Shown piece after piece: positions 6,878-57,528 of a stretch of DNA of 64,000 bases; positions within the stretch are counted from its first letter, which is position 1, and each line of letters opens with the position of its first letter. The notes beneath the pieces are model-generated. The model was not told where the DNA came from. It did not search any database and saw only the letters and a program-made list of their open reading frames with translations. This DNA is from Candidatus Methanophagaceae archaeon. GTDB taxonomy: Archaea; Halobacteriota; Syntropharchaeia; Alkanophagales; Methanospirareceae. The stretch is taken from assembly GCA_003194435.1 (NCBI GenBank), contig PQXC01000010.1, positions 1 to 64,000 on the forward strand, written 5' to 3'. The translations under genes were made by a program, and so were the position numbers.

Positions 6878-7297
6878 ATGTTTGAGCCCAGAATCGTGGC
6901 TTTCTGCTGTAATTGGTGCTCCTATGCAGCCGCAGACCTCGCAGGTATATCGCGCTTTCGGTACCCGCCAAATGTGCGCATAGTGCGTGTGATGTGCTCA
7001 GGGCGAGTAGAACCCGAATTTATCTTCGATGCCTTCAAACACGGTGCTGATGGTGTTATTATCACTGGGTGCCATCCCGGGGAATGCCATTATATATCGG
7101 GCAACCTGAATGCCGAGCGCAGGGTAGAGAACGTAAAGAAGGCAATGGAGTATCTGGGAATTGAACCGGGACGTCTCCGTCTGGAATGGATGTCTGCTGC
7201 CGAGGGCGAGAGATTTGCAGCGGTCATGCGTGACTTCACAGCCGAGATAAGAGCGCTGGGTCCTCTTATGCGTGGGAATGACGGGGATAAGAGATAA
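6878..7297 (+). CDS. mvhD: MvhD-like [2Fe-2S] electron-transfer subunit
   Basis: 139 aa, the usual size for the delta subunit of F420-non-reducing hydrogenase. Conserved cysteines are in FCCNWCSYAAAD, VMCSGRV and TGCHPGECHY. In the MvhADG-HdrABC complex MvhD passes electrons to the flavin of HdrA, where bifurcation occurs. Here hdrA starts immediately after its stop codon, so an MvhD-HdrA module is made without hydrogenase subunits or HdrBC nearby. The partner donor is therefore unknown; formate dehydrogenase, F420 or ferredoxin-linked modules are possible. Confidence 0.93.
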   Translation: MFEPRIVAFCCNWCSYAAADLAGISRFRYPPNVRIVRVMCSGRVEPEFIFDAFKHGADGVIITGCHPGECHYISGNLNAERRVENVKKAMEYLGIEPGRLRLEWMSAAEGERFAAVMRDFTAEIRALGPLMRGNDGDKR

Positions 7298-8623
7298 ATG
7301 ACAGATACGAGGAGTGTAGTGGTCATAGGTGGTGGTATCGCGGGCATACAGGCAGCAAGCGAACTCAGCGATATGGGGTTCCATGTGTATCTACTGGAGA
7401 AAGAGCCTGCGATAGGTGGACGAATGGCGCGTCTCAACAGGATATTCACCACAAATGAGAGTGCTATCGCATTACTGGAGCCGAAGATGCGGACGCTCGC
7501 AGCCAGAGAGAATGTGGAACTCATCACTTATGTGGAGATTGTGGCTGTTAAGGGTTCGGTAGGCGATTTTGAAATTACAATAGAGCATAAGCCACGCTAT
7601 GTTGATGCAAATAAGTGCACAGGTTGCCGGCGGTGTATGGAGGTATGCCCGGTGGAGCAGCCGAACCGCTTCAATGAGGGCTTTGGCACACTGAAGGCTA
7701 TTTATATCCCCTATGCTCACGCTGTCCCCTCATGCGCAGTCATAGATATTGAGAGTTGCCTGCGAAGCGGGGGTGAGGAGTGCGATGCCTGTATAAATGC
7801 ATGTGAATATAACGCGATAGATTTCACGCAGGCGAGGCATAAGCATAATAGCAAGAGTAAGAGTAAGCTGAAAGCGGGCGCTATAATTGTAGCAACCGGG
7901 TCTGCAACTTACGACCCCGAACCAGGGCACGATTATGGATACGGGCTATTAGATGATGTGATAACAACGATGGAGTTTGAGCGACTTACCGCTCCCGATG
8001 GTCCAACCGGCGGGAATCTCATCAGACCCTCAGACTGCCGGGAGCCGATGCGTGTGGGGTTCATCAATTGCGTTGGGTCACGGGATATAAACAGGAATCC
8101 GTATTGCTCTGGTGGTGTATGCTGCATGGAGAACATAAAGAATGCGATACTGCTGAAGGAGAAGCGCCCGGATGTGAGATGCTATATATTTTATATAGAT
8201 ATAAGAGCAGCTTTCAGGGGTTATGAAGCGTTTTATACACGTGCACGTGAGCTTGGTATCCGATTTATCCGCGGTAGACCCTCAGAGGTAATAGAGAATG
8301 AGAAAGGCAATCTGGAGATAAGAGTGGAAGATACGTTGAAGGGTATGGTGAGGACTATAGAGGTTGAGATGGTGGTTCTCGGAACTGGTAGTGTGCCAGG
8401 CGAAGATATTGAGAGGTTATCGGAGATGCTGAAGCTCCCGCTTACTACAGAAGATGGACTATTCAGGGAGTTGCATTCCAGAGTAGCGCCGGTAGATACG
8501 GAACAGAGAGGTATATTCATAGCGGGTGCAGTGGCAGGTCCGAAGGATATCGCACTTGCTGTTGCTCAGGGCAGTAGTGCAGCGGCGAGAGCAGCTTCCA
8601 CACTCCTCACGCTTAATGCTTAA
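7298..8623 (+). CDS. hdrA: Short HdrA-like flavoprotein (heterodisulfide reductase subunit A family)
   Basis: 441 aa, against roughly 650 for full HdrA. An FAD-binding Rossmann motif (VVIGGGIAGIQAA) starts at residue 8. A ferredoxin-type motif CTGCRRCMEVCP and a second cysteine cluster (CLRSGGEECDACINAC) are inserted near residues 105-165. The noncanonical cluster set is kept: CVGSRD and CSGGVCC. The usual DCSxC stretch after the flavin motif reads NESAIALLEPKM here, so those cysteines are lost. The N-terminal extra domain and C-terminal ferredoxin domain of full HdrA are missing. It is contiguous with mvhD and probably receives electrons from it. A serine/lysine repeat tract (SKSKSK) sits after the second cluster. 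Confidence 0.9.
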   Translation: MTDTRSVVVIGGGIAGIQAASELSDMGFHVYLLEKEPAIGGRMARLNRIFTTNESAIALLEPKMRTLAARENVELITYVEIVAVKGSVGDFEITIEHKPRYVDANKCTGCRRCMEVCPVEQPNRFNEGFGTLKAIYIPYAHAVPSCAVIDIESCLRSGGEECDACINACEYNAIDFTQARHKHNSKSKSKLKAGAIIVATGSATYDPEPGHDYGYGLLDDVITTMEFERLTAPDGPTGGNLIRPSDCREPMRVGFINCVGSRDINRNPYCSGGVCCMENIKNAILLKEKRPDVRCYIFYIDIRAAFRGYEAFYTRARELGIRFIRGRPSEVIENEKGNLEIRVEDTLKGMVRTIEVEMVVLGTGSVPGEDIERLSEMLKLPLTTEDGLFRELHSRVAPVDTEQRGIFIAGAVAGPKDIALAVAQGSSAAARAASTLLTLNA

Positions 8624-14434: not shown

Positions 14435-15382
14435 ATGGCAGAAGGTAAAGAGAAAGGAAAAGAGGGTGATTTGTTTATACCACGATTGGTAACAACAGAT
14501 GAGTATTTCGTATCCGGGCATCGTGCCTGTATGGGCTGTGGCGAAGCACTTGCTGTCAGACTTGTGTGTAAGGCACTGGGCAAGAATGTGATTATCGTTA
14601 TTGCAACGGGCTGTATGGAGGTCGTCTCGTCGCAACTGCCCTGGACTTCCTGGCGCGTTCCATGGATACATACCATATTTGAGAATGTAGGAGCTGTGGT
14701 CTCGGGCATAGAATCTGCATACAAAGCGCGTATTCGTAAGGGCAGGATAGCGCCGAAGGATGTCAAATTCGTCGGCTTCGCGGGCGATGGCGGCACTTCC
14801 GATATCGGCTTACAGGCATTATCGGGTGCGATGGAGCGAGGTCATGATTTCCTCTATGTCTGCTTCGATAACGAGGCGTATATGAATACCGGGATACAGC
14901 GGTCTTCTGCTACACCTTACGGCGCATGGACTACCACCGCACCGGTGGGCGAGAAGCAGCCTCTGGGTCAGATGACATGGAAGAAGAATATGCCAGAAAT
15001 CGCAGTTGCACACAGGATACCGTATGTAGCGACAGCATGCCCTTCCTATCCGCTGGATTTGATGGACAAAGTGCGCAGGGGTGTGGATATAGAAGGACCT
15101 GCATACATTCATGTATTATCACCCTGCCCCACAGGGTGGCGAACGCCTCCGAATCTGACGATAGAAGTGGGGCGTCTGGCAGTGGAGACCGGTGTGTTCC
15201 CGCTTTATGAGGTGATTGATGGTGAATACCGGCTGAGTTTGGAGCTACCGGAGCTGAAGCCGGTGCGAGAATATACAAAGAAGCAGGGCAGGTTCAGGCA
15301 TCTCTCCGATGACGCAATAGAGCGTATACAGGCGCGTGTAGAGGCTGATTATGCGAGATTGAAGAGCAAAGCTGGACTGTAA
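14435..15382 (+). CDS. porB: 2-oxoacid (pyruvate-type):ferredoxin oxidoreductase beta subunit
   Basis: 315 aa. CMGCGEALAVRLVCKALG provides two cluster cysteines, further ones are in ATGCMEVV and ACPSYPLD, and GDGGTSDIGLQALSGA is the thiamine diphosphate/Mg motif. The C-terminal PCPTGWRTPP matches PorB. A strong GAGGAGGAG precedes the ATG. The stop codon overlaps by one base with the start of the following oxidoreductase gene, indicating a single transcript. Confidence 0.94.
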   Translation: MAEGKEKGKEGDLFIPRLVTTDEYFVSGHRACMGCGEALAVRLVCKALGKNVIIVIATGCMEVVSSQLPWTSWRVPWIHTIFENVGAVVSGIESAYKARIRKGRIAPKDVKFVGFAGDGGTSDIGLQALSGAMERGHDFLYVCFDNEAYMNTGIQRSSATPYGAWTTTAPVGEKQPLGQMTWKKNMPEIAVAHRIPYVATACPSYPLDLMDKVRRGVDIEGPAYIHVLSPCPTGWRTPPNLTIEVGRLAVETGVFPLYEVIDGEYRLSLELPELKPVREYTKKQGRFRHLSDDAIERIQARVEADYARLKSKAGL

Positions 15383-17093
15383 TGGTAATAGTTGTGGGTT
15401 CCGGCGCGGGTGGTGCAACGGTAGCGAAGGAGCTGGCTGCTAAGCATATAACGGTGAAATTGATCGAGCGGGGACCGGCGATAGAGGAGAAGGATGCCTT
15501 CAGGTGCTATGCTGACACTGAATCGGAAGTGAAGGTTCTGCGAGCGATATGTCTGGGTGGAAGCACAACGGTATCAGCCGGTAATGGTGTGAGATGCCTG
15601 GAAACGGAATTGAGAGAAGCTGGTATTGATTTAAAGCATGAATTTGAGGCTGCGGAGCGTGAACTCGGGGTCTCTGTTCTTCCTGATGCCTTATTTGGCG
15701 AAGGAACAAAGCGGATTATGGAAGCTGCGGAGAGTCTCGGCTTCAAGATAGAGAAAACGCCTAAGTTCATAGACGCAGATAGATGCAAGCCCGATGGGAG
15801 ATGCGTATTCGGGTGTCCGGAGGGTGCTAAATGGACCGCATTGAGGTTTGTGCAAGAGGCGCGGAGAGAGGGTGCGAAGATAATTACGAATACAACGGTG
15901 GATGAGGTGGTGGTGAAGAGCGGGGAAGTGAAACGGTAGCGAAGGAGCTGGCTGCTAAGCATATACCGGTGAAATTGATCGAGCGGGGACCGGCGATAGA
16001 GGAGAAGGATGCATTCAGGTGCTATGCTGACACTGAATCGGAAGTGAAGGTTCTGCGAGCGATATGTCTGGGTGGAAGCACAACGGTATCAGCCGGTAAT
16101 GGCGTGAGATGCCTGGAAACGGAATTGAGAGAAGCTGGTATTGATTTAAAGCAAGAATTTGAGGCTGCGGAGCGTGAGCTCGGGGTCTCTGTTCTTCCTG
16201 ATGCCTTATTTGGCGAAGGAACAAAGCGGATTATGGAAGCTGCGGAGAGTCTCGGCTTCAAGATGGAGAAAACGCCTAAGTTCATAGACGCAGATAGATG
16301 CAAGCCCGATGGGAGATGCGTATTCGGGTGTCCGGAGGGTGCTAAATGGACCGCATTGAGGTTTGTGCAAGAGGCGCGGAGAGAGGGTGCGGAGATAATT
16401 ACGAATACAACGGTGGATGAGGTGGTGGTGAAGAGCGGGGAAGTGAAGGGTGTCAGGTGTGGTGACCGCGTATTCTCAGATGATACAGTTGTTCTTTCCG
16501 CTGGCGCTCTTGATACGCCATTGCTACTGGAGAAGCTCGGACTACCCACAACCTCAAAATCCCTATTCGTTGACACCTTTATAACAATCGGCGGCGTTCT
16601 CAAAGGCGTGGGGCTCAGCAGGGAAGTGACGATGAATTGCTACGTGAAGATGAAAGAGTTCATGCTTGCACCACATTTCTCGAAGCATCTCGTGGAAGCA
16701 CTGGCGATGCGGGGCATAAAAGTTTCACATGCGGACATACTCGGTATAATGGTGAAGATAAAGGATGAGGGGCGCGGGGTTGTTAATGGTGGTAAGGGCG
16801 TGAGCAAAGGAGTAACAGGTCGTGATGCGGCGAGATTATCAGAAGGAGCTTCTATTGCTGGTTCGATACTGGAGACGGCAGGTGTCGAACCCGGAACCTT
16901 CGTCGCCACACCGCTAAGAGGTGCGCATCCAGGCGGGACTGCGAGGATTGGTAGCGCTGTTGATAGGAACCTGGCGACAGAGGTGGACGGGCTATACGTG
17001 GTAGATGCGTCGGTGCTTCCAGCAGCGCCCGGTGCACCGCCTATACTGACAATCGTGGCACTTGCTAAGTATCTCTCAAAACGGCTCTCATAG
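15382..17093 (+). pseudogene. GMC-type FAD oxidoreductase gene split by a 515-bp internal tandem duplication
   Basis: Reads from ATG 15382 (VVGSGAGGATVAKELA, FAD dinucleotide motif) to a premature stop at 15937-15939 after 185 codons. The frame resumes in a second copy (GTG 15969) and runs to 17093, ending in GGTARIGSAVD...GLYVVDASVLP, the GMC C-terminal motif. Removing one 515-base unit restores one frame of 398 codons, the expected intact protein. Cysteines in DRCKPDGRCVFGCPEG suggest a metal or cluster site. It overlaps porB by one base. The 374-codon downstream frame lacks the dinucleotide motif, so a working enzyme is unlikely unless reading shifts. Confidence 0.8.
15417..16446 (+). repeat. 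Direct tandem duplication, 2 x 515 bp
   Basis: Units 15417-15931 and 15932-16446 align without gaps. I count seven substitutions (98.6 percent identity), four of them changing the amino acid (T to P, H to Q, I to M, K to E). The unit length is not a multiple of three, which creates the frameshift. Confidence 0.93.
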
Positions 17094-22502: not shown

Positions 22503-22543
22503 GTTCCTTTATTTGTGAATCCTTAACTTAATGTTAATGCGGA

Positions 22544-22627
22544 TGCGGAGGGGGAGATTCGAACTCCCGAACCCCTTCGGGATGAGGCCCTGAACCTCAC
22601 GCCTTTGTCCAACTCGGCAACCTCCGC
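22544..22627 (-). tRNA. tRNA-Leu (anticodon CAG)
   Basis: 84 nt class II cloverleaf. The acceptor GCGGAGG pairs with the 3' side CCTCCGC, discriminator A. The anticodon stem TGAGG/CCTCA encloses TTCAGGG, giving CAG. A long variable arm (CATCCCGAAGGGGTTCGG region) and GTTCGAAT T loop are present. No intron and no encoded CCA. Confidence 0.95.
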
Positions 22628-22693
22628 ATTGGTCCCTCTGACCCTCCTTATCTTCATATTAACAAAATAAACATTATTTACTAAGTCTCAGAG

Positions 22694-22774: not shown

Positions 22775-25507
22775 ATGAGCACTGAACGAAAAGCCCCGTA
22801 TAAGGAATATTTACAATCGGGCGAAGGAATTGGATTTGGTATAGCCCGGGAAGTGCCGAGGTGTATATCAGCATGTCCTGCTGGCTGTGATGTTCATGGC
22901 TATCTGAGACTGGTTGAAGAAGGCAGGTACAGGGAAGCCTACCAGCTTATAATGGAGACGATACCTTTACCTGCATCTATCGGGCGAATCTGCCATCATC
23001 CATGTGAATTGAGATGCCGGCGAGGCTTCTTCGATGCTCCTATTGCCATCGCGGCAGTCAAGCGATTTGTGGGTGATTATGGTATACAAAAGGCAGAGAC
23101 AGAGACAAAGACAAGGACAAAGACAAGGACAGATAGCAAAACCAAAAGAGTAGCAATCATCGGTGCTGGACCCGCGGGTCTGACGGCTGCTTTACGGCTG
23201 GCGAGTAAAGGTTATGCAGTGAAGGTGTACGAGCGATTGCCCTCTGAAGGTGGCATGCTCCTCGCTGGTATACCCCCATACCGGTTGCCGAAGGAGGTAT
23301 TGAAAGAAGAGATAGACCTTATTAAGCGTTCCGGAGTGGAGATAGAAGCGGGTAAGGAGATAGATAAGAGCGAGTTTGAGCGGCTGCGTCAGGAGTATGA
23401 TGCTATCTTCATCGCTGTTGGTATGCAAGAGAGCAGGAGACTGGGAATAGAAGGCGAGGATATGGAAGGTGTTGTGGGCGGTGTTGAGTTCCTTCGTGAG
23501 TTCAATCTCAGGCATCTACAGGGCAGTAATATGAAAGAGGTGGAGATAGGGGCGGGGCATAAAATAGCGGTGATAGGCGGTGGTAATGTGGCTATGGACG
23601 TTGCAAGATGCTTGATTCGGCTGGGTTCGGATGTAACAGTTATATATCGGAGGTCGCGAGATGAGATGCCTGCGAGTGTGGAAGAGGTAAGAGAAGCGGA
23701 GGAAGAGGGAGTGAAATTCTTATTCCTGGCTAACCCTGTAAGGATTCTTGGGTCGTCAAGAGTGGAGAGACTGGAGCTTATCAGGATGAAGTTAGGAGCT
23801 CCGGATGAGTCTGGCAGGAGACGACCAGTGCCCATAAAAGGCTCCAGGTTCTCAATGGCTGTGGATATGGTGATACCGGCAATAGGGCAGGCAACGAATC
23901 TTCAGTTCCTCGAAGGTAGTGGTGTGGAGACGGTGCATGGGCTGATAAAAGTGGATGAGTTCTGTTGCACCACGGTGGAGGGTATATTTGCGGGTGGCGA
24001 TTGTGTTCACGGTGCTGCGTTCGCAGTTGATGCTATTGCCGATGGTAATGTCGCTGCGGACTCAATAGACCGTTTTCTGAGTGGCGTTGAGATGGGAGCG
24101 CAGTCAAAGTCAGAGCCAGTGCCACGAGCAGCCACAGAGCTGGCGGATGAAGAGGCATATATAACGGAGGAGTTGAGGAATGAGGAGGCGCTGGGCTTGA
24201 TAGCCAGAGCCAGGCGATGTGAAATGCCCGAGATAGATATAGAAGTGCGTAAAGCCAGCTTCAAGGAGGTGAAAACAGGTTTAGCGGAGGAAGCGGTAGT
24301 GGCGGAATCGGGTAGATGCATGAGGTGTAGAGGCTGTTTACTGACTGATTCGGGCTTGAAAGTCGAGATAGCTGATGTGGATGCATTCATAGCGAGGCTG
24401 ACATACGTTACGGGCGTGAACAAATGTGCGGAATGTGGCGAATGCACTGCTTCCTGCCCCGTTGCTGCGATAGACCCGGGCTTCTCGCCACGAAAACTCG
24501 CCGGTATGGCGATGCTGGAGGATGCTGATAAACTCGCATTGAGTGAAGAGATATGGTCCTGCATCACCTGTGGTATCTGCAACGCTATATGTCCGTATGG
24601 CGTGGATTTCCTGAGGTTCATTCAGGGTGTGAGGACCTTAGCAGTGGGCAGGGGCAAAGGCAATGTACCACATTACAGTGAGCAGGGGCGGCTGGCAGTG
24701 GAGGATATAAGTAACAAAGAGAGGTTGAGATGGCTTGATGGTGTGGAGGGACTGAAAGTAGGAGATAGGGGAGATGTTTACTACTTCTCTGGCTGTCTCT
24801 CTTTTCTCGACCGCGTATACCACGACCGAGCCAATTTGAGGTTGCTTGATATCGCACGCAGTGCAGTGAAGATACTCAATTCGATAGGGATTGTGCCCGC
24901 AGTGAGCAGTGAGGAGAGGTGTTGCGGGCACGACCTGCTCTGGCTGGGCGATGAAGAGGGGTTCAAGACACTGATGAGGGCAAATATAGAGCTGATAAGG
25001 TCGAGCGGTGCAAAAATTGTGGTTTTCACATGTGCTGAATGCCTCAGAACTTTTGATATTGACTACCGGCGATTTTATGGTGAGCTGGGGTTTGAGGTCA
25101 TGCATATCACTGAGTTTTTAAAGGATAAGCACCTCAATTTGAATACATCGGCTGAAGAGCTCATCACCACATATCACGACCCTTGTCGGTTGAGGCATCT
25201 GGGGCTATATGATGCGCCGAGGGCGATTTTGGCACGTATCCCCGGTGTTAAACATGTGGAGATGGCACATAACAGAGAACACACACTCTGCTGTGGTGTG
25301 AGTAGCTTTTTGAGCTGCAGCCCGATAGCAAGGGCGATGCAGATGTCAAGGTTAGCCGAAGCCGAAGCAACAGGGGCATCAAAGCTCGTTGTTACATGCC
25401 CTAAGTGCTGGATACATCTCGACTGTGCACTGGAGAGCCTGAAAATGGAAAGGAAGATAGAAATAGAGGACCTGACATCCCTGCTCGCAGCTCGACTCAA
25501 GTTTTAA
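22775..25507 (+). CDS. Fusion of GltD-like FAD oxidoreductase with HdrD-like iron-sulfur/CCG module
   Basis: 910 aa. Residues 25-90 form a GltD-type iron-sulfur domain (CISACPAGCDVHGYL, CHHPCELRCRR). Residues 125-440 carry two dinucleotide folds, FAD GAGPAGLTAALRLASKGY and NAD(P) IGGGNVAMDVARC, ending with IFAGGDCVHG. Around residues 500-610 come CMRCRGC, a ferredoxin pair CAECGECTASCP and CITCGICNAICP. The last 250 residues hold two CCG-like domains (ERCCGHD, TLCCGVSSF) as in HdrD/GlcF. A TK/TR repeat linker sits near residue 107. Electrons probably pass from NAD(P)H or ferredoxin through FAD and clusters to a disulfide or other two-electron acceptor. Partner unknown; the gene stands alone. 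Confidence 0.85.
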   Translation: MSTERKAPYKEYLQSGEGIGFGIAREVPRCISACPAGCDVHGYLRLVEEGRYREAYQLIMETIPLPASIGRICHHPCELRCRRGFFDAPIAIAAVKRFVGDYGIQKAETETKTRTKTRTDSKTKRVAIIGAGPAGLTAALRLASKGYAVKVYERLPSEGGMLLAGIPPYRLPKEVLKEEIDLIKRSGVEIEAGKEIDKSEFERLRQEYDAIFIAVGMQESRRLGIEGEDMEGVVGGVEFLREFNLRHLQGSNMKEVEIGAGHKIAVIGGGNVAMDVARCLIRLGSDVTVIYRRSRDEMPASVEEVREAEEEGVKFLFLANPVRILGSSRVERLELIRMKLGAPDESGRRRPVPIKGSRFSMAVDMVIPAIGQATNLQFLEGSGVETVHGLIKVDEFCCTTVEGIFAGGDCVHGAAFAVDAIADGNVAADSIDRFLSGVEMGAQSKSEPVPRAATELADEEAYITEELRNEEALGLIARARRCEMPEIDIEVRKASFKEVKTGLAEEAVVAESGRCMRCRGCLLTDSGLKVEIADVDAFIARLTYVTGVNKCAECGECTASCPVAAIDPGFSPRKLAGMAMLEDADKLALSEEIWSCITCGICNAICPYGVDFLRFIQGVRTLAVGRGKGNVPHYSEQGRLAVEDISNKERLRWLDGVEGLKVGDRGDVYYFSGCLSFLDRVYHDRANLRLLDIARSAVKILNSIGIVPAVSSEERCCGHDLLWLGDEEGFKTLMRANIELIRSSGAKIVVFTCAECLRTFDIDYRRFYGELGFEVMHITEFLKDKHLNLNTSAEELITTYHDPCRLRHLGLYDAPRAILARIPGVKHVEMAHNREHTLCCGVSSFLSCSPIARAMQMSRLAEAEATGASKLVVTCPKCWIHLDCALESLKMERKIEIEDLTSLLAARLKF

Positions 25508-25562: not shown

Positions 25563-26381
25563 ATGGAAGAGTTTGAGGTAGAAGAACTCTCAATCTACTG
25601 GAACGTGGATGAGGAGAAGTTCAAGGATAAGATAAGTAAGCACTACAATATCATGGTAGCTGGCTTCCCACCGCTCGGTAATATCATACCATACCACCTG
25701 AAGGAGCTTTTAAGCGATTCGGAGAAGATAATGAGCTTCTATTCCTATAACTTCCCACCAATGGTGGAGGCGCATGATGAGGAGTTTGTGATACCGCACG
25801 ACGAGCTCTGGTACAGTGAAGAGAAGCGATTGTTCTGTTACATTGGTAAATATCCGGAGACGGAATATCTGCCAAAGTCGGCATATAAACAGTCAGAGGG
25901 GCTGGCTCGTGTGGCAAAAGAGCTGCATGTCCGCGAATTATACACGGTGGGTGTGGTGATGCCCTTTCAGCAGCCTTTCAGGAATACCAAGCCGGGTATA
26001 GAGGCGTATATAGGCTACTTTGAGGGCTCGCATAAGGAACTGCCCCATGCTTCCGTGAAGATGACGAGGAAGAACATTGGCAGATACACAATCATTCGTA
26101 AGACGGGACTGCTTCCCGGGTTCGCATCGAAATTGGGCATTGAGAGTTATTCCATACTCGGGGTTGGTAAATATCCGGAGGACCTGCGAGCCTGTGCAGG
26201 GGCTTTAAGGGCGTTCAAGCGCATGTCAGGGCTGGAACTGGAGACCGGAGCGATAGAGAAGATGCTGCATGAGAGTGCAGAAGCCGTTGAGGAGCGTATA
26301 AAGCAGCAGATAGCGAAGTCTACCTCTACTTATCGTGGCGATGGTGTGGGTGCCGATAGCTCTCAATACATGTATGGCTGA
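25563..26381 (+). CDS. PAC2 family protein (proteasome assembly chaperone-like)
   Basis: 272 aa. The pattern IMVAGFPPLGNIIPYHL, then FYSYNFPPMV and IPHDELWYSEEKRLFCYIG matches the PAC2 domain, whose eukaryotic members help assemble 20S proteasomes. Archaeal members are less well understood. The final 20 residues, rich in S, T, Y and G, look disordered. rqcH begins on the base after its stop, so the two proteins are made together, linking it to protein quality control. Confidence 0.8.
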   Translation: MEEFEVEELSIYWNVDEEKFKDKISKHYNIMVAGFPPLGNIIPYHLKELLSDSEKIMSFYSYNFPPMVEAHDEEFVIPHDELWYSEEKRLFCYIGKYPETEYLPKSAYKQSEGLARVAKELHVRELYTVGVVMPFQQPFRNTKPGIEAYIGYFEGSHKELPHASVKMTRKNIGRYTIIRKTGLLPGFASKLGIESYSILGVGKYPEDLRACAGALRAFKRMSGLELETGAIEKMLHESAEAVEERIKQQIAKSTSTYRGDGVGADSSQYMYG

Positions 26382-53504: not shown

Positions 53505-54845
53505 TTATTCACGAAACTTCTTCCATGATATAGCGGTGCGCCACATTACAGTCATATTTGTCATTAAAGCAATGATGAAGAGAGAAAAAAACACGGAAAT
53601 GGGATGTATGTAGCTGAGCACGCCGCCCATGAAAAGTATAAATAGCCTGAGGTCCCTATTGCCTTTATGTCGATAATTCAAATCGGCTATCGCTCTTGCA
53701 GCGGTATAACTAACCATCAAACTTCCTATAATAGCCAATGTGGAGGTAAAAATAATAGTTAAAGGAGCTAAGTAAAATCCAAACATCTTCGTTACCATCA
53801 GGTAATAAAACATTCCAAGTAGTATAATAGCATCTGCATACCTATCTAAGACAGCGTCAGTAAAACCTCCAATACTTGTGCTCATCTTCTTAAGCCTCGC
53901 TATTTCTCCATCACAACCATCCAGTATACTTGATAATTGAATGAAAATCCCGCCTGCAATTGGATGTGATAAGAAAAAAAGAATGGCACTCAGAGCAGCA
54001 ACCGCGAAACTCAATAAAGATACCTGAGTTGGTGTAACTCCCTTATATAGTTTGAGAATGAGCGGAGTGAATATCCTGGTTGAGACTTTTCGGTTTATAT
54101 GCCTCGATATGACACCATCTGCTGGTTTACCGAGCGAGCTCAGTATCCGCTTCTCTGCGTATCTCAAACTCGCAGGTGTATCAATATCGCACCAGAATCT
54201 GCCGTGTATATCAAGAACCCCCAGCTCATCTGATTGTATCAACCGCTGAACCGCTCCTGTCAGCGCCGTATCTCCACTTGCAATTGCAGCACTCAACGCG
54301 TTAAATATCGCAGGTGTGCAATAGAATATGCCACAGTCAATCGCATTGTACTCCTTTAGCCCCTTACCTATACGCTTTGGTCTCTCTCCTACTACAAGCA
54401 GTTTCGTGGCGTCCGCAAGGTCAAATACGTTCTCAGGTCTATCCACGCACAGTATGCACTTACCTGTACCAGGAGCATAACTCAGGAGCTGTTTCACAAT
54501 CCCCGGCTCAAAGACATGGTCACACATCAAAAGTATGAAATCCTCGTTATCCACCGCCTCTCTCGCCTTCCACACCGATAGCCCGTTTCCTTCGTCAAAT
54601 TCCTCGTTCCGAACGAATTTTATATTCACATCAGCATGAGTTTGAAATCGCGATTCCACATATCTCTTCACCTCTTCGCTTCTATACCCAACGGCGATTA
54701 CAAAATCGGTTATTCCACATTCTTTCAGCGATAATATCGCTCGCTCAATGACTGTGAGACCGAGCAAAGGAGTAAGAGGCTTTGGCGCGCTTATCGCAGC
54801 AGAGAGTCGCTCGCCTTTTCCCGCTGCCAGTATCACCGCTTTCAT
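53505..54845 (-). CDS. Bifunctional inositol-1-phosphate cytidylyltransferase/CDP-alcohol phosphotransferase (DIPP synthase type)
   Basis: 446 aa. Residues 1-235 are a nucleotidyltransferase (AVILAAGKGERLSAAISAPK, CDHVFEPG, FWCDIDTPASLRYAEKR). Residues 250-446 are a membrane CDP-alcohol phosphotransferase with the DGCDGEIARLKKMST...GGFTDAVLDRYAD metal motif (D..DG..AR...G...D...D). The fused form makes di-myo-inositol phosphate phosphate, a precursor of the heat-stress solute DIP, in Archaeoglobus and Thermococcus. Here it could serve that or an inositol lipid. No inositol-phosphate synthase is nearby. Confidence 0.87.
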   Translation of the reverse strand: MKAVILAAGKGERLSAAISAPKPLTPLLGLTVIERAILSLKECGITDFVIAVGYRSEEVKRYVESRFQTHADVNIKFVRNEEFDEGNGLSVWKAREAVDNEDFILLMCDHVFEPGIVKQLLSYAPGTGKCILCVDRPENVFDLADATKLLVVGERPKRIGKGLKEYNAIDCGIFYCTPAIFNALSAAIASGDTALTGAVQRLIQSDELGVLDIHGRFWCDIDTPASLRYAEKRILSSLGKPADGVISRHINRKVSTRIFTPLILKLYKGVTPTQVSLLSFAVAALSAILFFLSHPIAGGIFIQLSSILDGCDGEIARLKKMSTSIGGFTDAVLDRYADAIILLGMFYYLMVTKMFGFYLAPLTIIFTSTLAIIGSLMVSYTAARAIADLNYRHKGNRDLRLFILFMGGVLSYIHPISVFFSLFIIALMTNMTVMWRTAISWKKFRE

Positions 54846-54916
54846 TCCGGTATTTCATTTCATATTCCATCTTTTATTTTTTATCTTTGTTTTATTATCT
54901 TGTTAAGGGTGAGAAT

Positions 54917-56077
54917 ATGGTGATGGAACTGGAAAGAGAGAAGGTACTGAGTGCGATTTACCACTGTGTGAAGTGCAAGTTGTGTAGCATTGCGAGTTTT
55001 CATCCGGGCGATGAATGGCTGCCGTTATGCCCCAGCGGGCAATATTACGGCTATCAGGCGTTTTACGCACCGGGCAAGATGGAGATTTTTCGTGCGATAT
55101 TGGAGGGAGAGATAACCGAGCCATCGGAGGGGCTACTGAACGCGATATATGCCTGCACGGTATGCGGAGCGTGTTACGAGAAGTGCAAGCAGATAACGAA
55201 CGTGGAGCTGGGCGCACCGGAACTGTTTGAAGCGATGCGGCACGAGATGGCGACCAAGGGCTGGATTCTTGATGAGCACAGGGCTATTGTAGCGAAGATA
55301 AAAGAAACGAGGAATGCGTATGGCGAGAAATACAAATATGATGCGAAATCAACCGACAGTAATGCCGATGTCCTCTATTATATCGGCTGCACTGCACGAT
55401 ACAGAGTGCCTGAGATTGCAGATGCCATGCTCGCAATCTTCAATAAACTGGGTATAAAATATCAGGTGATGGATGAGGAATGGTGCTGTGGCTCGGTATT
55501 ATTCAGAACGGGACAGGTAGAGGCGGCGGAGGAGCTCGTGGCGCACAACGTTGAAGAGATAAAGAAGAGTGGTGCAAAGACCGTTGTTTTTACTTGCCCT
55601 GGCTGTATGAAGACTTTCAAGAATAATTATCCTGATATGGGTGTTGAACTGGTGCATGCTACGGAGTTTTTAGCACGGCGATTGGGGAATGGTATGAACC
55701 TGAATAAGGGCGATATGAAGGTGGCTTATCATGACCCTTGTCATTTAGGCAGGGATTTGGACATATATGACGAGCCAAGAGCGGTTCTGAGCGAAGTGGC
55801 AGAGATAAAGTCAATGAAGCGCGAGAGGGAGCAGGCATGGTGCTGTGGGTCTGGTGGCGGCGTGAAGTCCGCTTATGATGGGTTCGCACTGTGGTGTGCT
55901 ACCGAACGACTGAAAGAGGCGAGAGAAGCAGGTGCTGAGGCACTTGTGAGTGCGTGCCCGTTCTGTAAACGGAATTTGAGAGAGGCGGCAGAGAAAGAGG
56001 GGAAGGGAACGAGAGTGTATGATGTTGTGGAGCTTGTGAATAAGGGATTAGCCGCGGGCAAAAGCAATAACTTTTAA
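54917..56077 (+). CDS. Iron-sulfur oxidoreductase with two CCG domains (GlcF/LutA/HdrD-like)
   Basis: 386 aa. CVKCKLC...CP and CTVCGACYEKCKQ bind two [4Fe-4S] clusters; CCG domains (EEWCCGS, QAWCCGSGGG) with CPGCMKTF and CPFCKRN follow. This is the electron-accepting partner of the FAD subunit encoded next, in a 2-hydroxyacid (D-lactate or glycolate-like) oxidase. ATG 54917 has AGGGTGAG at the right spacing; the frame extends further upstream without a better start. Confidence 0.9.
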   Translation: MVMELEREKVLSAIYHCVKCKLCSIASFHPGDEWLPLCPSGQYYGYQAFYAPGKMEIFRAILEGEITEPSEGLLNAIYACTVCGACYEKCKQITNVELGAPELFEAMRHEMATKGWILDEHRAIVAKIKETRNAYGEKYKYDAKSTDSNADVLYYIGCTARYRVPEIADAMLAIFNKLGIKYQVMDEEWCCGSVLFRTGQVEAAEELVAHNVEEIKKSGAKTVVFTCPGCMKTFKNNYPDMGVELVHATEFLARRLGNGMNLNKGDMKVAYHDPCHLGRDLDIYDEPRAVLSEVAEIKSMKREREQAWCCGSGGGVKSAYDGFALWCATERLKEAREAGAEALVSACPFCKRNLREAAEKEGKGTRVYDVVELVNKGLAAGKSNNF

Positions 56078-56109
56078 ATACGCTCACACCCTGATTTTAG
56101 GTTAAAGAA

Positions 56110-57528
56110 ATGGGAATGAGATTGATAGAGGAATTGAGAGCGATAGTGGGCGAGGAGAACGCCACAGATGATATAGCGATCTGTACTTCGTATTCGAGAG
56201 ACCAGCACTGGCATTTCGTGCCTGCAAAGAATCCTGCATACGTTGTGCGACCAGGTAGTAAAGAAGAAGTGAGGCAGATTTTGATGCTTGCGAATCGTGA
56301 GAAGATACCGGTGATACCTCACAGCACGGGAATAAATGTGCGTGGTCTGACAATCCCGGTTCACGATGGCAGTATCTTATTGGACCTGGGGCGAATGAAT
56401 CGCATCATAGAGATAAATCCAGAAATGAAGACCGCTACCGTGGAGCCAGGTGTGACTTTTGGCATGCTGTTTGAGCAAACGCGTAAGTATAAGTTGCGAC
56501 CGGCATTTCCGGATGCACCGCTTACCGTGAGCGTGCTGGTAAATTATTACCTGCGCGGGATATATCAGACCGCTGCGACTGATGGGCATGACCACACGAT
56601 CTCGTATGAGATGATTCTACCGAATGGCGAGACGATAAAAACGGGCTCAAGAGCTCTCTCTAATATGCCTTACTTTAGATACGGCGTAGGTCCAGACTTT
56701 ACCGGTATATTCTGCGCACATCCCGGGACATGTGGTGTGGTAACCGAATTAACGGCGAAACTTTACAGGTTATATGACAACAGGAAAACATACTTCATCG
56801 GTTTTGACGATGTGAGCACGCCACAGAAGTTCATTTATAATTTGATGTATGATGAACTGGCAGCAAGTATAAGGCTGGTGGACAATCAGAGCTGGTTAAA
56901 GGGGATATGTGGCACCTTTGATTATCCATACGAGGAGCTACCGAAATTCGTCCTGTGCGTGCTGATAGAGGGCATAGATGGCATATTTGAGGCAAAAGAT
57001 AAGTTAGTGCGTGCGTATATGAAGGAATCACACGGGAAGGTTCTGGAGTTGCCGCATGAATTCGCAACTACATTCAAGCATGAGAGTCTGGGAGGTGCAG
57101 AGAAGAGCTGTATGGTCTTCGGCTTGGAGGGTAAGGGTAATTACCACTGCATCGGGTTCTATGGACCGTTGAAGCTGGCTACGCGATATTATGAAGCGCA
57201 TGAAAAGACGGCTTTGGAGGTTGGAATCCCCGCGAACAATGTCCATTTCTATCTCGACCCGATATCCAGTTTCCACGGTCAGCTATGCTACTTCGAGCTT
57301 GACATATTTTATGATGGTAGCGACCCCGAATTCGGTGCGAAGTTGAGGTCTTACAATGATAAGCAGTTCCATAAATTGTTGGATATAGGAATCTATGGCT
57401 GGTTCAGACCTTATGCGGGAATAATAGAACCCACAGTGGAACGAATAGGGTATCTTTCGGAGGTATGGAAGAAGTTTCTCAGGGTTATTGACCCGAACGG
57501 GATAATGAACCGTGGGAAGCTGTTCTAA
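56110..57528 (+). CDS. FAD-linked 2-hydroxyacid dehydrogenase (GlcD/Dld-like)
   Basis: 472 aa. PCMH FAD domain: NPAYVVRPGSKEEVRQILML, VIPHSTGINVRGLTIPV and CAHPGTCGVVTELTAK, then a C-terminal substrate domain ending VIDPNGIMNRGKLF. The typical PGG..T loop reads PHSTGINV, so substrate handling may differ from D-lactate dehydrogenases. Thirty-two bases after the FeS subunit; both form one unit feeding electrons into the CCG protein. Confidence 0.9.
   Translation: MGMRLIEELRAIVGEENATDDIAICTSYSRDQHWHFVPAKNPAYVVRPGSKEEVRQILMLANREKIPVIPHSTGINVRGLTIPVHDGSILLDLGRMNRIIEINPEMKTATVEPGVTFGMLFEQTRKYKLRPAFPDAPLTVSVLVNYYLRGIYQTAATDGHDHTISYEMILPNGETIKTGSRALSNMPYFRYGVGPDFTGIFCAHPGTCGVVTELTAKLYRLYDNRKTYFIGFDDVSTPQKFIYNLMYDELAASIRLVDNQSWLKGICGTFDYPYEELPKFVLCVLIEGIDGIFEAKDKLVRAYMKESHGKVLELPHEFATTFKHESLGGAEKSCMVFGLEGKGNYHCIGFYGPLKLATRYYEAHEKTALEVGIPANNVHFYLDPISSFHGQLCYFELDIFYDGSDPEFGAKLRSYNDKQFHKLLDIGIYGWFRPYAGIIEPTVERIGYLSEVWKKFLRVIDPNGIMNRGKLF

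Follow-up and report, generated by a model that had tools for sequence, protein, structure and literature searches.

A single-chain GltD-HdrD flavoprotein of ANME-1 archaea, a candidate NADP(H)-linked partner of MetFV and/or HdrA-MvhD

The DNA analysed here (hereafter the window) is a stretch of 64,000 nucleotides from an ANME-1 archaeon. One forward-strand open reading frame with an ATG start encodes a protein of 910 amino acids, in which a GltD-type iron-sulfur flavoprotein is continued by an HdrC-like dicluster and two CCG domains (Table 1). An initial annotation had read this chain as a GltD FeS/FAD/NAD(P) unit with ferredoxin clusters and two CCG domains, and the Pfam searches and cysteine patterns agree: Fer4_20, Pyr_redox_2, Fer4 and CCG were all found, Fer4 in the form of Fer4_8. 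The CCG cysteines follow the patterns C674-X41-CC716/717-X35-CxxC753/756 and C804-X34-CC839/840-X34-CxxC875/878, and both motifs are complete. No HdrA region was found in the 910 residues, which gave only short dinucleotide-fold matches. The upstream neighbour of the fusion gene is a divergent tRNA-Leu gene (22541-22628), and downstream lies a PAC2-family gene that also follows the fusion in the nearest relative (L148) and that we judge to be unrelated to it. Elsewhere in the window, a 300-base direct repeat (15408-15707 and 15923-16222, 97% identical, spaced 515 bases) splits a FAD-type ORF in two (15382-15936 and 15969-17090), reflecting either a recent partial duplication or an assembly error.

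Table 1. Coordinates of the fusion gene, its domains and two further loci in the window.
Feature	Position	Strand	Residues and motifs	Basis
GltD-HdrD fusion protein, whole gene	22775..25507	+	910 aa	Single ORF; 20 intact single-ORF orthologues in the order
Fer4_20 domain	22853..23089	+	Residues 27-105; Cys 30, 34, 38, 73, 77, 81	Pfam; invariant Cys; site table over 79 GltD rows
FAD/NAD(P) domain, Pyr_redox_2	23147..24046	+	Residues 125-424; GxGxxA 268-273, RR 292-293	Pfam; site table
Displaced cluster-ligand segment	24215..24337	+	Residues 481-521; RCMRCRGC; Cys 515, 518, 521	HMMER alignment
HdrC-like dicluster, Fer4_8	24416..24604	+	Residues 548-610; eight Cys, 551-606	Pfam; HdrC chains 9sfi_E, 5odc_C
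First CCG domain	24794..25042	+	Residues 674-756; five Cys, 674, 716, 717, 753, 756	Pfam; cysteine pattern; alignment
Second CCG domain	25169..25423	+	Residues 799-883; Cys 804, 839, 840, 875, 878	Pfam CCG; PF02754 scan
PAC2-family gene, 56 bases 3' of the fusion	25563..26381	+		Same strand
mvhD and short hdrA pair, 14 kb upstream of the fusion	6878..8620	+	139 aa and 441 aa	FlpD and HdrA-type matches

A search of the 53 genomes of the order recovered the intact fusion in 20 (884-1014 aa, 48-88% identity) and fragments in three more: G001, where a contig end cuts the gene, G025, where it is spread over two contigs, and G010, which holds a piece. Twenty-nine cysteines, those of all cluster motifs included, are invariant in 19 aligned fusions. 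A sample of 394 genomes drawn from the phylum yielded no fused copy outside the order, and of the 80 loci taken from the genome collection only five, all of them archaeal and from ANME-1 or its sister group, have the two halves in one ORF. Given these orthologue counts, the invariant cysteines and the lack of a fused copy in the genomes searched outside the order, the fusion is real and characterises ANME-1 together with its sister group (Alkanophaga). The 20 intact orthologues come from separate assemblies, which together with the cysteines rules out a sequencing error or gene merger, a concern raised by the initial annotation. At this level of identity and with the cluster cysteines kept, there is a vanishing probability that the ORF is an assembly artefact or a decayed joining of two unrelated genes that have no function in common. 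The form found in G007 (L165 5210-8251) has 1014 residues and, with its insertions, is about 100 aa longer than the others.

The flavin half adopts the GltD fold and has sites for FAD and NADP(H) (5jca_L, E 1.4e-94; fold match of the predicted model, pLDDT 86, TMt 0.82). Its best solved matches, in both sequence and fold, are NfnA of Thermococcus NfnABC, a subunit of Caldicellulosiruptor Nfn-ABC and StnC of Sporomusa, followed by NfnL and GltD. The CxxC segment with cluster ligands, which is N-terminal in NfnL and GltD, stands after the flavin domain in the fusion: HMMER domain 1 of 5jca_L (8-45) and of 4ylf_B (3-42) aligns to fusion residues 479/481-518, and the alignment with 8oh5 and 9bov covers residues 28-610, ending at 610. 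A plain glutamate synthase small subunit was rejected, the scores for the GltD/GltA profiles lying below cut-off (TIGR01316, 349.5 versus 471.75; TIGR01318, 288.3 versus 482.95).

In NfnL, E126 is a Glu ligand of the proximal [4Fe-4S] cluster and is important for coupled bifurcation (PMC9503767). In a site table of 79 GltD rows, this position is Lys (K96) in every fusion readable there; Lys also occupies it in the remaining GltD types of ANME-1 and in almost every bacterial form, while Glu is retained in six of six stand-alone archaeal homologues. The proximal cluster of StnC is ligated by Lys or Cys, and the StnC FAD is non-bifurcating (PMC10482914). Because K96 replaces the Glu ligand of NfnL much as Lys does in StnC, the flavin of the fusion is predicted to be non-bifurcating, and the role for ferredoxin that had been proposed for the chain finds no support. 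The closeness of this half to NfnA of NfnABC and to StnC, taken with K96, likewise argues for an NADPH-linked, non-bifurcating flavoprotein. An Nfn-like bifurcating enzyme, with the HdrD part replacing NfnA as the high-potential branch and ferredoxin on the low-potential side, would be in keeping with the identity of about 40-45% between the GltD half and NfnL and with the conserved Arg that contacts FAD N5 (R170, equivalent to NfnL R201). However, the same Arg is present in non-bifurcating StnC (PMC10482914), and the exchange of Glu for Lys makes bifurcation of this kind highly improbable. No NfnA/NfnS partner was recognised next to the fusion in the neighbourhoods read.

By the motif rule for NADP(H) binding of PMC12054007, the GxGxxA motif and the Arg pair favour NADP(H), in line with the earlier proposal of NAD(P)H as one redox partner. 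The Alkanophaga fusion (L012 5294-7969 and L164 5618-8293, the same contig) carries Ile at R170 and Val-Glu at 292-293; since the latter replaces the Arg pair, this fusion likely uses NADH rather than NADPH. C38 (nt 22886-22888) is Cys in every fusion readable there and in no other row of the site table, and is possibly an extra ligand of the cluster near the FAD. It is common to the Alkanophaga and ANME-1 fusions despite their separation in the tree of GltD halves, in which a single clade is not rejected by the AU test (p 0.178).

For the HdrD half, a tree of 100 HdrD-like rows places the ANME-1 and Alkanophaga fusions in one group with full SH-aLRT support, which shows that this half, as judged from the tree, had a single origin; outside this group, an MvhD-HdrD protein from a euryarchaeote (L016) comes closest. 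The predicted fold (pLDDT 89) is matched best by EtfD, then by a LutA model and HdrB chains, and EtfD is also the best match in sequence. A second HdrD-like protein in the window (431 aa, two CCG) adjoins a GlcD-type FAD_binding_4 protein of 472 aa (54782-57525, forward strand), and G047 has a comparable pair close to its fusion (L154 7758-10000).

A chain of this composition could be a stand-alone NADPH:heterodisulfide (CoM-S-S-CoB) oxidoreductase, or one acting on another disulfide, in which electrons would pass from NADPH through FAD and the clusters to the CCG sites; this comes near to what the initial annotation proposed. The completeness of both CCG motifs and their invariance in 19 fusions would suit such an enzyme, as would the match of the HdrD half to the HdrB chains 5odc_B, 8rwn_B and 7bkb_B (TM-scores near 0.5) and the solitary position of the gene in several genera among the neighbourhoods read. 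On the other hand, the best match of this half in both fold and sequence is EtfD and not an Hdr, and identical or nearly identical cysteine sets are present in bacteria, which are expected to lack CoM and CoB. Moreover, CoM-S-S-CoB reduction by NADPH opposes methane oxidation, and the reverse, NADP+ reduction by CoM-SH and CoB-SH, is uphill by about 0.18 V at textbook standard potentials. On these energetic grounds, we consider a stand-alone reductase unlikely and less likely than a partner of MetFV and/or HdrA-MvhD. No HdrE-like cytochrome b or membrane subunit was recognised next to the fusion in the neighbourhoods read, which leaves the membrane thiol acceptor suggested at the outset without support.

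Outside the order, the GltD and HdrD halves are separate, mostly neighbouring genes that lie almost always in HdrA/MvhD clusters, some of them with MetV-MetF. There, HdrA-MvhD(-MetVF) clusters encode five to seven subunits, of which the halves are only two, so the idea that the fusion replaces a multi-subunit Hdr is not borne out. One such locus (L014) has the gene order GltD-HdrD-HdrA_N-HdrA_C-MvhD-metV-metF, which matches the Alkanophaga order except that its first two genes are not fused, and this correspondence argues for descent from an HdrA-MvhD(-MetVF) complex. Within the order, 13 other genomes carry a split version with a separate GltD-type gene, mostly of 840-860 aa. Seven of their neighbourhoods were read: the GltD-type gene is clustered with HdrD-like, HdrA_N, HdrA_C and MvhD genes in G021, G006, G018 and G027, and G004 has the HdrD-like/HdrA_N/HdrA_C/MvhD cluster too, cut by a contig end; it stands beside MvhD and HdrA in G028 and beside MvhD in G024. 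Fusion and split version occur together in none of the 53 genomes (hypergeometric 4e-4 for 21 carriers, without correction for phylogeny).

These clusters raise the possibility that the fusion serves a confurcating HdrA-MvhD complex as its NADP(H)/CCG arm, the HdrA gene lying elsewhere and the linkage to MetFV being only occasional. CoM-SH/CoB-SH or another dithiol would then be oxidised at the CCG sites, with HdrA performing the flavin-based coupling. Besides the position of the split homologues, the HdrA_N and HdrA_C genes directly 3' of the Alkanophaga fusion speak for this explanation, as does the presence of HdrA homologues in all 53 genomes, several in most. The mvhD-hdrA pair of the window is possibly a separate partner of the fusion, and hdrA matches of about 441 aa are also present in G008, G010, G011, G013 and G007. 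HdrDE clusters are absent from all ANME-1 genomes of PMC9012536, which also agrees with an HdrA-MvhD arm. It counts against a primary link to MetFV that the HdrD-like subunit is frequent in those HdrA clusters of bacteria that lack MetVF, suggesting that its basic role is with HdrA and not with MetF. Nevertheless, in ANME-1 proper the fusion never adjoins HdrA in the neighbourhoods read, and we regard this explanation as a serious one, if rather doubtful.

Four genomes from three genera (G022, G023, G032 and G033) carry metV, metF and the fusion in this order on the same strand, with gaps of about 70-170 bases, Pfam identifying the genes before the fusion as encoding MTHFR and MetV-type proteins. 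The claim that the fusion is a lone gene thus holds for the window but fails in relatives, in which it follows metV-metF in these four genomes and stands beside HdrA in Alkanophaga. With about 2,000 genes per genome, adjacency to metVF by chance is estimated at about one in a thousand per genome. In the fusion tree the linked fusions fall into two distinct branches, and the MetF proteins of the two are only about 54% identical, so the linkage would have been gained at least twice, or once with several losses. The recurrence of metV-metF-fusion operons on two branches with distinct MetF types argues for a partnership with MetFV, as does the finding that fusion and split version never co-occur. 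Against this, the fusion does not adjoin metVF in the window, nor in most carriers (several contigs end nearby), and both CCG motifs are complete, as in disulfide-reducing enzymes, which a mere adaptor would not need.

The metabolic setting is consistent with the MetFV partnership. The genome that the window comes from holds McrA and a metF-metV-metF cluster; Mer and the F420:NADP reductase (NpdG/Fno) were not found in it, and the latter is missing from 52 of the 53 genomes of the order. In the cluster (L168 6593-9890, contig C25), two MetF copies, both of nearly full length, flank one MetV. The inverse pattern is seen in G014, which belongs to the same family as the genome of the window: it alone in the order has NpdG, no other member of that family has Mer above the cut-off, and MetF, the fusion and the split version were not found in it at the thresholds used. 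Coming from one genome that is 82% complete, this pattern is suggestive of a link between the fusion and the MetF route; G014 may be the putatively methanogenic ANME-1 with Mer to which PMC10322722 refers. How MetF-derived electrons re-enter ANME-1 metabolism has been named as an important open question, MetF lying beside HdrA in none of the ANME-1 genomes considered (PMC9012536). In acetogens, MetFV itself lacks an NAD(P)H site and relies on that of RnfC2 or HdrA (PMC8515935), a precedent that also speaks for the partnership.

The reading that we tentatively prefer is that the fusion acts as a soluble NADP(H)-linked electron-transfer flavoprotein, a partner of MetFV and/or of separate HdrA-MvhD units. 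It would have originated by fusion of the neighbouring GltD-type and HdrD-type subunits of an HdrA-MvhD complex, a complex type that in some Desulfobacterales loci also carries MetV-MetF. From its motifs, we infer an FAD, two GltD-type [4Fe-4S] clusters, one of them built with the displaced CxxC segment, the dicluster and two CCG sites. NADPH would react at the FAD and reduce it, and single electrons would then pass over the two GltD-type clusters to the HdrC-like dicluster and on to the CCG sites. In ANME-1, the fusion would allow electrons to pass between NADP(H) and MetFV, which has been proposed to replace Mer, and its CCG part would form the contact with, or the exit to, MetFV and/or an HdrA-MvhD unit separate from it. 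With both couples at about -0.32 V (textbook potentials), the reaction CH3-H4MPT + NADP+ -> CH2=H4MPT + NADPH is near equilibrium. The more specific proposal that a single GltD-HdrD chain is a new type of MetFV redox partner, tying methyl-H4MPT oxidation to the NADP(H) pool, is possible, and we hold it with less confidence.

ANME-1 archaea consume much of the methane of marine sediments, and the fusion provides a specific candidate protein for the question of where their MetF-step electrons go. If the MetFV partnership is correct, the GltD-HdrD chain would compensate ANME-1 for its lack of Mer and F420:NADP oxidoreductase and would represent a further solution for MetFV besides RnfC2, HdrABC-MvhD and plain ferredoxin. 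If it is wrong, the fusion would still constitute a compact electron path from NADPH to CCG sites. Identifying its natural acceptor would inform on the many unassigned HdrD-like proteins of bacteria.

Each part of the fusion resembles a known system. Like StnC of StnABC and NfnA of NfnABC (8oh5, 9bov, 9n5u), it combines a GltD-type NADPH module, a displaced ligand segment and a following dicluster, and it shares with them Lys at the proximal-cluster site. Its C-terminus, however, is HdrB-like with CCG domains where theirs is a NuoG/FdhF-like domain, and a partner like the HydBC-like StnAB of StnC was not recognised in the fusion neighbourhoods read. With HdrD of HdrDE and with HdrB/HdrC, the fusion shares a dicluster, two CCG motifs and an HdrB-like fold. 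Unlike them, it carries a flavoprotein and has no recognised HdrE-like membrane subunit next to its gene, and the tree groups it with the HdrD-like subunits of HdrA clusters.

GltD-type domains joined to an Hdr component are already known, in ANME-1 as well, from HdrL (PMC2702500), HdrA9-11 (PMC9012536) and type III HdrA (PMC12054007). In those proteins the Hdr part is HdrA, whereas in the fusion it is HdrC-HdrB (HdrD) without HdrA. The genome of the window also holds a GltD-HdrA paralogue, cut by a contig end; type III HdrA being this separate paralogue, it was rejected as an identity for the fusion. NCBIfam family NF045663 (pyridine nucleotide-disulfide oxidoreductase/dicluster-binding protein, 759 aa) seemingly combines GltD-like and CCG-like parts, as judged from partial matches. 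The fusion scores 249.5 bits against its cut-off of 530 and is not a member, and no members were found in the genomes of the class at E<=1e-60, nor in the 12 locus-linked genomes or controls. No description of a single GltD-HdrD chain was found in the literature searched, subscription papers aside.

The closest parallels for the MetFV partnership are MetFV-HdrABC-MvhD of Moorella thermoacetica and MetFV-RnfC2 of Acetobacterium woodii (PMC8515935), in both of which a further, NAD(P)H-carrying redox partner is coupled to MetFV. Here, the linkage is one of gene order, and the partner would be one GltD-HdrD chain without HdrA or RnfC2. Taken together, the fusion most likely descends from a multi-subunit complex of a type already known, and its single-chain GltD-HdrD arrangement is most likely new.
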